Source: an uncultured Oscillospiraceae bacterium
GTDB lineage: Bacteria > Bacillota > Clostridia > Oscillospirales > Oscillospiraceae
DNA: 40,386 bases
Direction of reading: 5' to 3'
Assembly (NCBI GenBank): GCA_949948775.1
Contig: CATLHC010000021.1
Location: 1 to 40,386, forward strand
The notes under the pieces: model-generated
The model's database searches: none
The model's input: only the letters and a program-made list of their open reading frames with translations
What the model was told of the DNA's origin: nothing
Shown here: positions 6,190-38,015 of the stretch, one piece after another
How the letters are laid out: every line of letters starts with the position of its first letter
Numbering within the stretch: position 1 is the first letter of the stretch
Program-made: the position numbers and the translations under genes

Positions 6190-6233
6190 CTTACTTTTTC
6201 TTTGAAAAGAAAAAGTAAGCAAAAAGAAACTTT
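6190..6233. repeat. Hairpin repeat, class 2 copy 3
   Basis: The hairpin CTTACTTTTTCTTT-GA-complement (6190-6219) plus the CAAAAAGAAACTTT tail are nearly identical to the copy at 1259. It begins five bases after the obgE stop and is followed at once by the terminator at 6236. Confidence 0.85.
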
Positions 6234-6235
6234 TA

Positions 6236-6266
6236 GGGGCCTGTCCATTCGGACAGGCCCTCTTTT
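6236..6266 (+). terminator. Terminator hairpin after obgE
   Basis: GGGGCCTGTCC (6236-6246), loop attc, complement at 6251-6260, then TCTTTTAT. A close copy in the same orientation follows the XRE gene at 6925-6960, so the two-gene cassette between them is bracketed by direct repeats of this terminator. Confidence 0.8.
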
Positions 6267-6576
6267 ATCCTTTTGGCACACTGATGGGATAGGCCCATCC
6301 CAGGACCCGGCTCCTCTCCAGATCGAACCAGCTCCCGTCCCCTGATTGGTGGGAATAGGTCCCGTTTTCATAGGAAAACATATCGAAAGCCACCTCATCC
6401 ATGACAGGATCATAGAATTTGAGCAGGACATAGCGGGCATCCTGCGGCGGCGTGTCGGGAGAGCGCCAGGGTATGATAGTGACCTCGTCCATACTCTGGA
6501 TCCCCAGGATATCCATCAGCTCCTGCTCCCGGCTCGCGTCATATAAAAGCTGTTCCGTGCCGTCCCAGATACGCAT
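6265..6576 (-). CDS. Hypothetical small acidic protein, divergent from an XRE regulator (cassette 1)
   Basis: 103 aa, not recognised. It starts MRIWDGTEQLLYDASREQEL and is rich in Asp, Glu, Trp and Tyr, with no membrane segment or signal peptide, so it is probably soluble and cytoplasmic. The ATG at 6576 is preferred over an in-frame GTG at 6588 because AAGGTGG lies about eight bases upstream of it. A good minus-strand promoter (6624-6652) and two palindromes (6594-6612, 6647-6665) lie between it and the divergent XRE gene, so repression by that regulator is likely. Its function is unknown; an immunity, antitoxin-like or effector role would be speculation. Confidence 0.65.
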   Translation of the reverse strand: MRIWDGTEQLLYDASREQELMDILGIQSMDEVTIIPWRSPDTPPQDARYVLLKFYDPVMDEVAFDMFSYENGTYSHQSGDGSWFDLERSRVLGWAYPISVPKG

Positions 6577-6593
6577 TGCGATCCCCACCTTAA

Positions 6594-6612
6594 TGACATC
6601 TAGTAAATGTCA
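6594..6612. promoter_or_regulatory. Palindromic operator-like site 1, cassette 1
   Basis: TGACAT-7-ATGTCA, a perfect six-base inverted repeat, part of a direct repeat (TAATGACA...TAAATGTCAA) with the site at 6647. It lies downstream of the minus-strand promoter, where a bound repressor would block transcription. Confidence 0.6.
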
Positions 6613-6623
6613 ACTTAATAGCT

Positions 6624-6652
6624 AGTATAGCATAAACTCTCCTTAATGACAA
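6624..6652 (-). promoter_or_regulatory. Promoter of the cassette 1 small gene
   Basis: Read on the minus strand: -35 TTGTCA (6652-6647), 17-base spacer, -10 TATACT (6629-6624). The -35 overlaps the palindrome at 6647-6665. Confidence 0.7.
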
Positions 6653-6665
6653 CTACTAAATGTCA
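6647..6665. promoter_or_regulatory. Palindromic operator-like site 2, cassette 1
   Basis: TGACA-9-TGTCA, a second copy of the site at 6594 on the same strand, 53 bases away. It overlaps the -35 of the minus-strand promoter and ends 14 bases before the XRE start codon. Confidence 0.6.
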
Positions 6666-6679
6666 AAGAGGGTGGGGAT

Positions 6680-6925
6680 ATGTTCAAAAATAAGAGTCCT
6701 GACGGCAGGTTGAACCTGTGTGGAAAAAATGTGGCCCGTCTGCGCATGGCTATGCAACCAAAGGTATCCCAAAACGACTTGGCGGGCCTGTTGCAGCTGG
6801 CTGGGCTGGATCTGGAGAAAAACGCCGTCCAACGCATTGAGAGCGGCCAGCGCTTTGTGACGGATATAGAATTAAAAAAGCTGGCGGAAGTGCTGGGTGT
6901 GTCCATAGAGGAGTTGCTGAACTGA
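6680..6925 (+). CDS. XRE-family helix-turn-helix regulator (cassette 1)
   Basis: 81 aa, essentially one HTH_XRE domain: NVARLRMAMQPKVSQNDLAGLL gives the first helices, then NAVQRIESGQRFVTDIELKKLAEVLGVSIEELLN closes the fold. It has no effector domain, typical of small self-contained repressors. It is preceded by a GGTGGGG-type ribosome binding site and the direct-repeat palindromes, which are its probable binding sites. A terminator begins on its stop codon. It is one of three similar XRE genes in the window with a small divergent partner. Confidence 0.85.
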   Translation: MFKNKSPDGRLNLCGKNVARLRMAMQPKVSQNDLAGLLQLAGLDLEKNAVQRIESGQRFVTDIELKKLAEVLGVSIEELLN

Positions 6926-6960: not shown

Positions 6961-7020
6961 TTTTTGATACGCGTACGGGCTGGGGCGATCTGCCGGCAGC
7001 CCCGAGCCGTGCGGTGCACG

Positions 7021-7276
7021 AACTCAGGCGCAGTCCAATAGACCTGACCCGGTCCAATGACGGGATACCGGCGGCAGCACAAATAGGAGCATCTGGGTCG
7101 AAAGCCACATGCGCCGGAAATCTATGCCCACCCGCCGTATAGGGCGTCCCCCGTAACAGGGGGGTCTCGGGGGGAGGCCCGACTGTGAACATGGCCCGCC
7201 CTTGGGGCCGTGTTCACCCGGAGGGCTTCCCCCTGAGCGTGTCTTTGGTTCCTTTCTGCACGAGCAGAAAGGAACG
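7021..7276. repeat. Composite structured repeat, copy A (full length)
   Basis: Three modules. The 5' part has conserved words ACTCAGGCGCAGT, CCGGCGGCAGCACAAATAGG, GTCGAAAGCC and GCGCCGGAA, then GGCGTCCCCCGTAA. The middle is a long interrupted hairpin: CTCGGGGG (from 7166) pairs with CCCCCTGAG (to 7237), and an inner stem GTGAACA/TGTTCAC (7185-7191 with 7211-7217) is unique to this copy. The 3' part is TCTTTGG then hairpin GTTCCTTTCTGC-acga-complement (7248-7275). It fills most of the gap between the XRE gene and the ClC gene, whose 3' end is six bases away. A separate small hairpin (GGGCTG near 6977 with CAGCCCC) precedes it. Confidence 0.85.
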
Positions 7277-31491: not shown

Positions 31492-31516
31492 TGCCCCACC
31501 CCGCGCCGAACGGTCA

Positions 31517-31777
31517 ACCACCCAGGCGCAGTCTAAACCCGCACCAGCGTTCAGTATTCAGACACCGGCGGCAGCACAAATAGGGGCGCCCGCGTCGAAA
31601 GCCCAACGCGCCGGAAGGGTATTGCAAAGGGTGCGTATAGGGCGTCCCCCGTAAACAGGGGGTTCTTAGGGGGAAAGCCGCCTGTGAGCGAGGGAGCGCC
31701 CTTTGCTCCCGAAGTCGAACCGGCGGATTGCCCCCTAAGTGTGTCTTTGCCTACTTTCTGCACAAGCAGAAAGTAGG
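31517..31777. repeat. Composite structured repeat, copy B (full length)
   Basis: Same order as copy A: CAGGCGCAGT, CCGGCGGCAGCACAAATAGG, GTCGAAAGCC, CGCGCCGGAA, GGCGTCCCCCGTAAAC, then TTAGGGGG paired with CCCCCTAA around GCCGCC/GGCGG and an inner stem GGGAGC/GCTCCC unique to this copy, then hairpin CCTACTTTCTGC-acaa-complement (31750-31777). It fills the gap between gatD and the XRE gene at 31913. Confidence 0.85.
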
Positions 31778-33750: not shown

Positions 33751-33818
33751 GTGTCCGCCGGAGAGCCGCCCCCTAAGCGCACTCTTTGGTTACTTTCTCT
33801 CGCGTGCGAGAAAGTAAC
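33751..33818. repeat. Composite structured repeat, copy D (3' module only)
   Basis: It retains CCCCCTAAGCGC, CTCTTTGG and hairpin GTTACTTTCTC...GAGAAAGTAAC (33789-33818, with a two-base bulge). The 5' module of copies A-C is missing, so this is a truncated member. Confidence 0.75.
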
Positions 33819-33913: not shown

Positions 33914-34191
33914 GCGTCCGTTCCCGGAGGAGCGGACGCCATATTACAAGGCTTTGAACAGGACGAGTAACCGGAAACTGCCTCTCAGAGAGCTACCCAC
34001 ACGGTGCGAGGGCGGCGGGGCGGGCCCGGCGAAAATCACCTGGGAGCCGCGGACCGAACGTTTTTATGCAAGTAGATTCCGCCGGAAGTCCCCGTTACAG
34101 GACGCGCGAGTGCCGCATTTTGATATGCGGAACAGGAGTGGTACCGCAGAGGTTTGCGCCTTTGTCTCCTTTTGGGGACAGGGGCGTTTTT
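33914..34191 (+). ncRNA. Ile T-box riboswitch leader
   Basis: A first hairpin GCGTCCG/CGGACGC (33914-33939) precedes stem I, which has the AGAGAG motif near 34000 and a specifier loop with ATC (34035-34037, an Ile codon) in GAAAATCACC. The T-box bulge AGGAGTGGTACCGC is at 34134-34147. A terminator follows: a stem from 34156 ending in TTTTT at 34191. Uncharged tRNA-Ile would favour the antiterminator and allow read-through. The regulated gene ileS begins ~600 bp further on, past cassette 3. Confidence 0.85.
34156..34191 (+). terminator. T-box intrinsic terminator
   Basis: CGCCTTTGTCTCC and GGGGACAGGGGCG pair around tttt and run into five T. It is the off state of the leader. Confidence 0.8.
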
Positions 34192-37592: not shown

Positions 37593-37729
37593 GGGAGGGG
37601 ACGGCGGGCAGGGTCCTCTCTCCGGGCCGACCAGTCCCCCCTTTATTTGTGTGTGAGTTTTGAAACCAGGTGCGCCCAACCGCCGGAGCTGGCGGCCCTC
37701 CGTTCGGACCCTGCCCGCCGTCCCCTCCC
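37593..37729. other. 24-bp perfect inverted repeats flanking 89 bases
   Basis: Arms at 37593-37616 and 37706-37729 are exact complements. Inside, GGGCCG pairs with CGGCCC and CCGCC with GGCGG, so the unit folds as one long hairpin. It starts 13 bases after ileS, immediately before composite repeat C. It could be a MITE-like element or an ileS 3' structure. Confidence 0.75.
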
Positions 37730-37770
37730 CCGCCCCGTTGCCCAATACGCACCGGAGCCAGACGGCGCAC

Positions 37771-38015
37771 CAACTCAGGCGCAGTTCAATAAACCCACAC
37801 CCAATCAATGATTAGACACCGGCGGCAGCACAAATAGGAGCACCGGCGTCGAAAGCCGCACGCGCCGGAACGATTTGACCCACGTATCGTATAAGGCGTC
37901 CCCCGTAAAGGGGATTCTTAGGGGGAAGCCCGCCTAAGGACGCGAAGCGTCCGTCCGGCGGGATGCCCCCTAAGCGCGCTCTTTGGTTACTTTCTCTCGC
38001 GAGAGAGAAAGTAAC
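37771..38015. repeat. Composite structured repeat, copy C (full length)
   Basis: Same modules as A and B: ACTCAGGCGCAGT, CCGGCGGCAGCACAAATAGG, GTCGAAAGCC, CGCGCCGGAA, GGCGTCCCCCGTAAA, then TTAGGGGG/CCCCCTAA with CCCGCC/GGCGGG and inner stem GGACGC-gaa-GCGTCC, then hairpin GTTACTTTCTCTC-gcga-complement (37986-38015). It lies between the convergent ileS and serpin genes. Confidence 0.85.

Follow-up and report, generated by a model that had tools for sequence, protein, structure and literature searches.

Hairpin-rich intergenic repeats of an Oscillospiraceae genus as likely outward-facing arms of non-autonomous mobile elements

Does the composite, multi-hairpin repeat that lies between genes of an uncultured Oscillospiraceae bacterium act as a folded RNA, or is it part of a mobile DNA element? 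The window, i.e. the whole stretch of 40,386 nt that was analysed, contains copies A, B and C and a 3′ remnant D (Table 1). A sequence-only reading had described them as an intergenic repeat selected to fold as RNA or cruciform. All four were found where it had placed them, with A, B and C each between genes, and its outer stems (CTCGGGGGGAGGCCC/GGGCTTCCCCCTGAG in A, CTTAGGGGG/CCCCCTAAG in B and C) and terminal hairpins (GTTCC/GGAAC in A, CCTAC/GTAGG in B and GTTAC/GTAAC in C) were as quoted; a profile put the cores ~20 bases further 5′ than had been given. The repeat was therefore real, but the unit had been drawn too small, since the copies behaved as outward-facing arms. Outward pairing, presence or absence in close genomes and an empty site pointed to a mobile DNA element, and we consider it likely that the copies are the arms of non-autonomous elements, MITE-like when empty and cassette-like when loaded.

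Table 1. Positions of the arm copies and of the copy-A cassette in the window
Feature	Position	Strand	Basis
Inverted short-type terminal hairpin CTTACTTTTTCTTT..AAAGAAAAAGTAAG, without core	6190..6219	-	3′-module profile, 24.9 bits
107-aa gene, divergent from the XRE gene	6265..6588	-	orthologues at the site in G034, G014, G029 and G002
AT-rich region of the divergent promoters, containing two imperfect palindromes that resemble each other, TGACATCTAGTAAATGTCA and TGACAACTACTAAATGTCA	6600..6668	.	sequence
XRE/HTH_3 regulator gene, 5′ of copy A and reading towards it	6680..6925	+	PF01381, E=1.6e-6, above cut-off
Copy A, 5′ core and first CCCCC/GGGGG hairpin	7000..7177	+	profile match, 121 bits; alignment
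Copy A, core blocks AGGCGCAG / GCGGCAGCACAA..TCGAAAGCC..GCGCCGGAA / CGTATAGGGC	7000..7177	+	sequence-conserved
Copy A, outer stem CTCGGGGGGAGGCCC/GGGCTTCCCCCTGAG	7166..7237 (7166-7180 with 7223-7237)	+	read from sequence; outer-stem list
Copy A, inner hairpin within outer stem	7185-7217	+	read from sequence
Copy A, TCTTTG and terminal hairpin GTTCCTTTCTG..CAGAAAGGAAC	7242..7275	+	alignment, pair counts
Copy B, 5′ core	31498..31675	+	profile match, 136 bits
Copy B, 3′ module, TCTTTG and terminal hairpin CCTAC/GTAGG	31676..31777	+	sequence, alignment
Copy D, a 3′ module without core: 3′ strand of the outer stem (by eye) and terminal hairpin (33784-33818)	33751..33818	+	
Copy C, 5′ core	37752..37928	+	profile match, 137 bits
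Copy C, 3′ module, TCTTTG and terminal hairpin GTTAC/GTAAC	37929..38015	+	sequence, alignment

Anatomy of the arm and selection for pairing

A three-block pattern built from the window copies matched three times in the window and not once in 100 shuffles. A whole-genome profile search gave 27 cores (E<=1e-18) on many contigs and both strands of the window's own genome (G000; 2.82 Mb in 174 contigs), and blastn with copy A gave 28 matches there, one being copy A's own palindrome. These copy numbers are minimum values because the assemblies are mostly fragmented metagenome bins. Copy B was a single arm behind a GATase-like gene and copy C a single arm behind ileS, while no profile match to a core was seen at D. 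A T-box leader (RF00230, 105.7 bits) lies upstream of ileS at 33945-34172 (+), and a perfect 24-bp inverted repeat (37593-37616 with 37706-37729) lies between ileS and copy C.

Each arm was ~250-300 bp long; its 5′ core (~165 bp) was conserved in sequence and its 3′ module was palindromic. In an alignment of the cores, the blocks AGGCGC, GCGGCAGC, GCGCCGGAA and CGTATAGGGC were nearly invariant, and the spacers between them were nearly fixed in length and free in sequence. The core was followed by a CCCCC/GGGGG hairpin, an outer stem enclosing an inner hairpin, and TCTTTG with the terminal hairpin, 3′ of which there was often a small GC palindrome. Each of the six reading frames was interrupted in 15–21 of 24 copies, by which protein coding was rejected, in line with the non-coding claim of the earlier reading; at least one frame was still open in 19 of the 24 over this short stretch.

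At site C, the arms of G000 and G034 differed in the types of both inner and terminal hairpin. Hairpins are thus also exchanged as modules, because copies at one site could carry different types. Inner stems had been called entirely different between copies, but their types recurred at other loci and in another species, so that the differences are in part module exchange. Short-type terminal hairpins without core (TTTTTGCTTACTTTTTC..AAAGAAAAAGTAAG) were present in the window at 1282, 6190-6219 and 30663 (-), the last being a CCTAC variant; these may represent a simpler kind of arm that serves other cassettes.

Covariation on a larger alignment, also proposed by the sequence-only reading, was supported in the terminal hairpin by a shuffle control that takes no account of relatedness. 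From 127 anchors, 60 distinct hairpins were compared; duplicates, short ones and those lacking the anchor word were set aside. Paired cells amounted to 98.7% (84.2% in shuffles), the covariation score was 0.344 (0.101), compensatory cells numbered 84 (20.8), and 8 of the 12 pairs changed on both sides (5.1); of the five measures, only the count of pair types (11 vs 11.6) was not above shuffles. Sliding the partner by 1–3 columns destroyed the signal. Paired changes were also seen between orthologues of the copy-A site, comparing G063 with G000 and G029. The two sides of the outer stem changed together too: outer stems of at least 8 contiguous pairs occurred in 94 of 97 segments, as against 31 with the 5′ side shuffled; these 97 had been selected from 123 for having a terminal hairpin, and 26 of the 123 were without one of at least 7 bp. 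Over all 123 segments, unselected, the 3′ half had an energy of -96.4 kcal/mol vs -66.0 kcal/mol in mononucleotide shuffles, and every segment (123/123) fell below its own shuffle mean; the values were -75.1 vs -43.3 where sequences had been preselected for the terminal hairpin.

The core gave another picture. Its energy (-53.1 vs -51.4 in mononucleotide shuffles, 62 copies) was hardly lower than that of shuffles, RNAalifold found almost no fold in it, and hairpins in its spacers were not clearly better than shuffled ones (-2.66 vs -2.75; -6.39 vs -6.05). GGCGC/GCGCC was rejected as a covarying helix, being invariant in 119 of 123 core sequences (from 151; those <45 bits or incomplete were left out) with one compensatory and three mismatched cases. 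The column pairs that covaried most strongly within the 5′ core did not follow Watson-Crick pairing and looked like subfamily linkage, so they too were rejected as a helix. From this contrast between the halves, the 3′ half is selected for pairing, which is well supported, and the 5′ half for sequence. The conserved words of the 5′ half therefore stood as sequence but not as a covarying helix; of the proposed folded RNA or cruciform, pairing was borne out for the 3′ half alone, and RNA is not favoured over DNA. A DNA palindrome would likewise be expected to show the covariation seen in the terminal hairpin, and these repeats, if read rightly as mobile DNA, are a warning against taking covariation in repeats between bacterial genes as proof of a functional RNA.

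The compensatory changes and the stability of the 3′ half would also suit a multi-copy structured RNA (a small RNA or 3′-UTR element), whose core would be functional, whose hairpins would stabilise the end and whose inverted pairs would each correspond to two units transcribed divergently. This is improbable in our judgement, given the near-shuffle energy of the core, its want of a supported covarying helix and the occurrence of the terminal hairpin without a core. The Rfam searches returned only the T-box leader, elsewhere, from the whole window at gathering scores, and nothing near the gathering score from copies A and B at permissive E-values; a known RNA family was rejected on this ground.

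Two-armed units and their cargo

A profile search gave 217 hits, which were reduced to 127 anchors (hits <60 bits, short or duplicate were dropped), and 100 cores had 1 kb of sequence on both sides. An inverted partner within 1 kb was present on the 5′ side of 43 of the 100 cores and on the 3′ side of none. Forty-two of these partners were arms and one, that of copy A, was a short terminal module only; the 43 cores represented 34 places because both arms of one unit can count. Same-orientation matches were seen on the 5′ side of 21 cores and on the 3′ side once. Gaps between partner arms fell into two classes, 0-224 bp (empty) and 488-720 bp, with one 913-bp gap in G017 falling outside the 1 kb that the partner search reached. 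The units measured 436-774 bp (empty) or 1.03-1.43 kb (loaded), and both ends of a unit finished in the same hairpin module. On contig C1 of G017, 9 of 12 strong cores belonged to one inverted-pair design of 601-636 bp, in which the two arms were of different subtypes at a fixed distance.

A BOX/ERIC-like parasitic repeat would place the mobile unit in the single arm; pairs would then come from preferred insertion beside an existing arm, and the regulator genes described below would be trapped rather than carried. For such a repeat speaks that 57 of the 100 cores had no inverted partner on their 5′ side within 1 kb, but the strict 5′-to-5′ pairing, the two gap classes and the fixed spacing of unlike subtypes in G017 speak against it, and we hold it to be unlikely.

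Under the reading of the copies as arms of a larger element, the loaded gaps hold cargo. Their GC content was 0.46-0.55, compared with 0.61-0.70 in the flanks (0.54 in one flank). Among 13 distinct loaded gaps, ten had a divergent pair of small genes, two had one recognised gene and one had none called. The partner of XRE was DUF6809, RHH or another small protein, and further pairs combined an Arc-like with a small protein, some families having been assigned by search and others by similarity seen by eye. In a Pfam search of mechanically called ORFs beside arms, HTH_3 was found in 14 of 119 on the 5′ side and in 2 of 109 on the 3′ side. DUF6809 and RHH_5 were found four times each on the 5′ side, and neither appeared in the 3′-side list, which showed 25 of 54 families. 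DUF6809 was present in 34 of 42 same-genus genomes, and 29 of 30 DUF6809 loci were without an arm by profiles, a distribution that the trapped-gene explanation would accommodate.

As shown in Table 1, copy A stands at one end of such a unit. The hairpin at 6190-6219 was its only inverted partner, and the distance from hairpin to hairpin was ~1.09 kb, compared with 1033-1093 bp in seven of ten loaded units elsewhere. The two genes diverge from an AT-rich region whose palindromes (TGACATCTAGTAAATGTCA and TGACAACTACTAAATGTCA) are presumed operators, judging from their sequence. The copy-A XRE gene also adjoined the orthologous arm in G029; family searches found no family for the 107-aa partner protein. 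XRE proteins matched phrog_8 of PHROG (E=5.8e-22) and, below the cut-off of 80 bits, the NCBIfam model RstR (E=1.5e-15, 57.3 bits).

Paired arms lay downstream of the cargo genes and in their sense direction, the 5′ neighbour gene being on the same strand in 22 cases and on the opposite strand in 7, as a structured RNA would also predict. Against that explanation, single arms had no clear strand bias to their 5′ genes (31 same, 22 opposite), by which arms as obligatory 3′-UTR elements were rejected.

Gain, loss and host range

At the obgE site, which holds copy A in the window, G027 and G064 had neither genes nor arm; G034 and G014 had the 107-aa gene with a different XRE gene and no arm; G063 had an RHH-like gene, the same other XRE gene as G034 and G014, and an arm; G000 and G029 had the 107-aa gene, the copy-A XRE gene and an arm. 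The other XRE gene and the RHH-like gene were assigned by reading the sequence. From these combinations, halves consisting of gene and arm seem to have been swapped around the central promoter, and the limit of the cargo is blurred at this site because the 107-aa gene occurs there without an arm. Directly behind the genes of sites B and C (23 and 24 loci examined, respectively, of 30 fetched for each), arms were found in G000, G034 and G029 only, and G016, the lineage next to G000 and G034 in a three-gene tree of 19 genomes, was without arms at both. Such a distribution is consistent with repeated gain, loss or lateral transfer.

The contigs of G060 and G028 were collinear with 93.1% DNA identity over 167 kb. 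Of 12 arm sites in collinear stretches, six were common to both genomes and six were in one only (five in G028 and one in G060), with one on G028C32 near 65 kb being an unclean replacement. A 610-bp empty-class unit of G060 was absent from G028, where the two flanks overlapped by 3 bases, giving a clean empty site. Arms, and a complete empty-class unit, were thus directly seen to be present or absent between close genomes, and such coming and going of whole units also counts against a structured RNA. A single arm of G028 was absent from G060 and had CGCCCC on either side, read as a 6-bp direct repeat; this polymorphism of a lone arm is what a BOX/ERIC-like repeat would give. The three loaded-size sites were shared by G060 and G028 (genes checked at two), so no loaded unit was observed to have moved. 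No general target-site duplication was detected in 29 paired units (6.59 vs 6.56 in the null), and direct repeats flanked 7 of 46 single arms (4.3 expected) and 2 of 34 paired arms (3.2 expected).

A second intergenic repeat, GTTGTCATGCTTCGCCTGTTCGCGACGCG... (window 24037, -), stood at site B of G016 and G032 in the position that an arm has in relatives, and in G029 it had inserted into the left hairpin of the copy-A site; it was met at sites A or B in G016, G032, G027 and G029.

A profile search of 60 genomes, 37 of the same genus and 23 from other families of the order, with stricter filters by which weak matches are lost, found cores in 20, every one of them in that genus; G060 searched alone gave 16 profile matches. 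When named genomes were scanned with the core pattern, a member at >=20 bits was present at 58 of 109 loci and not at 51 among the matches listed, so that the idea of all such matches being members was wrong. The member loci, for the 80 loci with a title among the matches listed, carried the titles Oscillospiraceae, Clostridiales, Bacillota or uncultured bacterium. Four of the 51 other loci (L151, L166, L158 and L168), two from each of two additional gut MAGs, matched the core pattern with a profile score of <20 bits; the layout of outer stem and terminal hairpin was as in the arm in L166 and less clear in the other three, and all four are possible remote relatives.

A strict terminal-hairpin pattern matched 7 of 245 genomes, including the window's genome and one same-genus genome, and the hairpin stood behind another 5′ part in three other families of the order. 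In one of these families (L342, L347 and L343; G191 and G281), a different conserved 5′ region, GCGACACCTCTGCGG...GGCGGCGTATACGG..., preceded the same TCTTTGGTTACTTTCT hairpin; this region is apparently structured, and Rfam gave no credible match for it.

The arms could also be imagined as the ends of a minimal satellite of a phage or other replicon, with divergent repressor genes and with structured ends serving as the replication or packaging signals of a helper. XRE proteins do resemble phage repressors (phrog_8, and RstR below cut-off), and short XRE proteins are common in many settings. One 9-kb contig classed as viral (L239, IMGVR_UViG_3300010163_003381) carried a true core (119 bits), and it may be a misassigned host fragment. 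However, of four viral contigs that the core pattern picked up, three were without a member, and blastn gave no match for copy A in 50,697 phage records or for copy C in 72,556 plasmid records, by which spread by phage or plasmid was rejected (one copy per collection). We regard a satellite as very improbable.

A model of movement and its relation to known systems

The anatomy, outward-only pairing, two size classes, cargo and covariation are direct observations, onto which the following model is set. A complete element would be two arms pointing outward, either empty or enclosing two small divergent genes. An enzyme acting in trans would recognise the core as sequence, the conserved inner core being such as a protein could bind; the same enzyme would recognise the terminal palindromes as cruciforms or single-stranded hairpins and move the unit. 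Single arms such as B and C would be solo insertions or remnants, and the regulator pair (XRE or RHH-type with a small partner) would be carried as cargo.

A mobilising enzyme was sought in the genomes among two families, Y1_Tnp and RVT_1. Y1_Tnp was absent from G000 and from the arm-rich G017, G028, G029 and G034, all incomplete assemblies, and was present in 16 of 42 same-genus genomes, some of them with arms. It is therefore unlikely as the general partner, and a REP/RAYT partnership was rejected. A reverse transcriptase partner was likewise rejected, RVT_1 being absent from the window's own genome. In gaps between partner arms of up to 1 kb, no transposase was recognised and no related autonomous element with the same ends was found.

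MITEs (miniature inverted-repeat transposable elements) are given as 50-500 bp long and typically AT-rich in a review (PMC10969869). The arm units resemble them in being small, multi-copy, intergenic and hairpin-forming, in having inverted ends without a transposase, and in being present or absent in close genomes. They differ in that their arms are GC-rich, 250-300 bp long and endowed with an extended conserved core, as against the short terminal repeats of MITEs, and in that neither a related autonomous element nor a general target duplication was found for them. In the concept of mobile insertion cassettes (MICs), one or more passenger genes lie between the ends in place of the transposase. 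The loaded units are comparable to MICs and TIME-COMP composites (PMC6542083, PMC13367494), in which passenger genes lie between non-autonomous ends and are presumably moved in trans. Unlike these, the cargo here is a divergent pair of tiny regulator-type genes.

REP sequences are far smaller than the arm unit. REP, BIME and REPIN elements share with it palindromic repeats in inverted pairs and mosaics (PMC2817692), but differ by the Y1_Tnp (RAYT) lacking in the five arm-rich genomes named above. BOX elements of Streptococcus pneumoniae are, by description, also hairpin-rich interspersed repeats; they are mostly limited to one species group, and two-armed units with regulator pairs are absent from the abstract that describes them (PMC3049150). 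Among the literature matches listed, no description of the arm element was found, and mobile elements of uncultured Oscillospiraceae seem to be little described.

A bolder proposal, which we put forward tentatively and think doubtful as a whole, is that these are a new class of mobile two-gene regulatory cassettes, in which the arms, each made of a core recognised by sequence and of selected palindromes, are moved by a kind of enzyme not yet tied to such ends. Their divergent XRE/RHH and small-partner pairs would recombine as halves of gene plus arm, with the central promoter as the point of exchange, and so disperse small regulators within a gut genus. If the reading of the copies as arms of mobile elements is true, they represent a multi-copy family with long, structured and sequence-conserved ends and an unusual cargo of tiny divergent regulator pairs. 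Which enzyme recognises such ends would then become a testable question, and the family would help to explain the scattering of small XRE/DUF6809 pairs.
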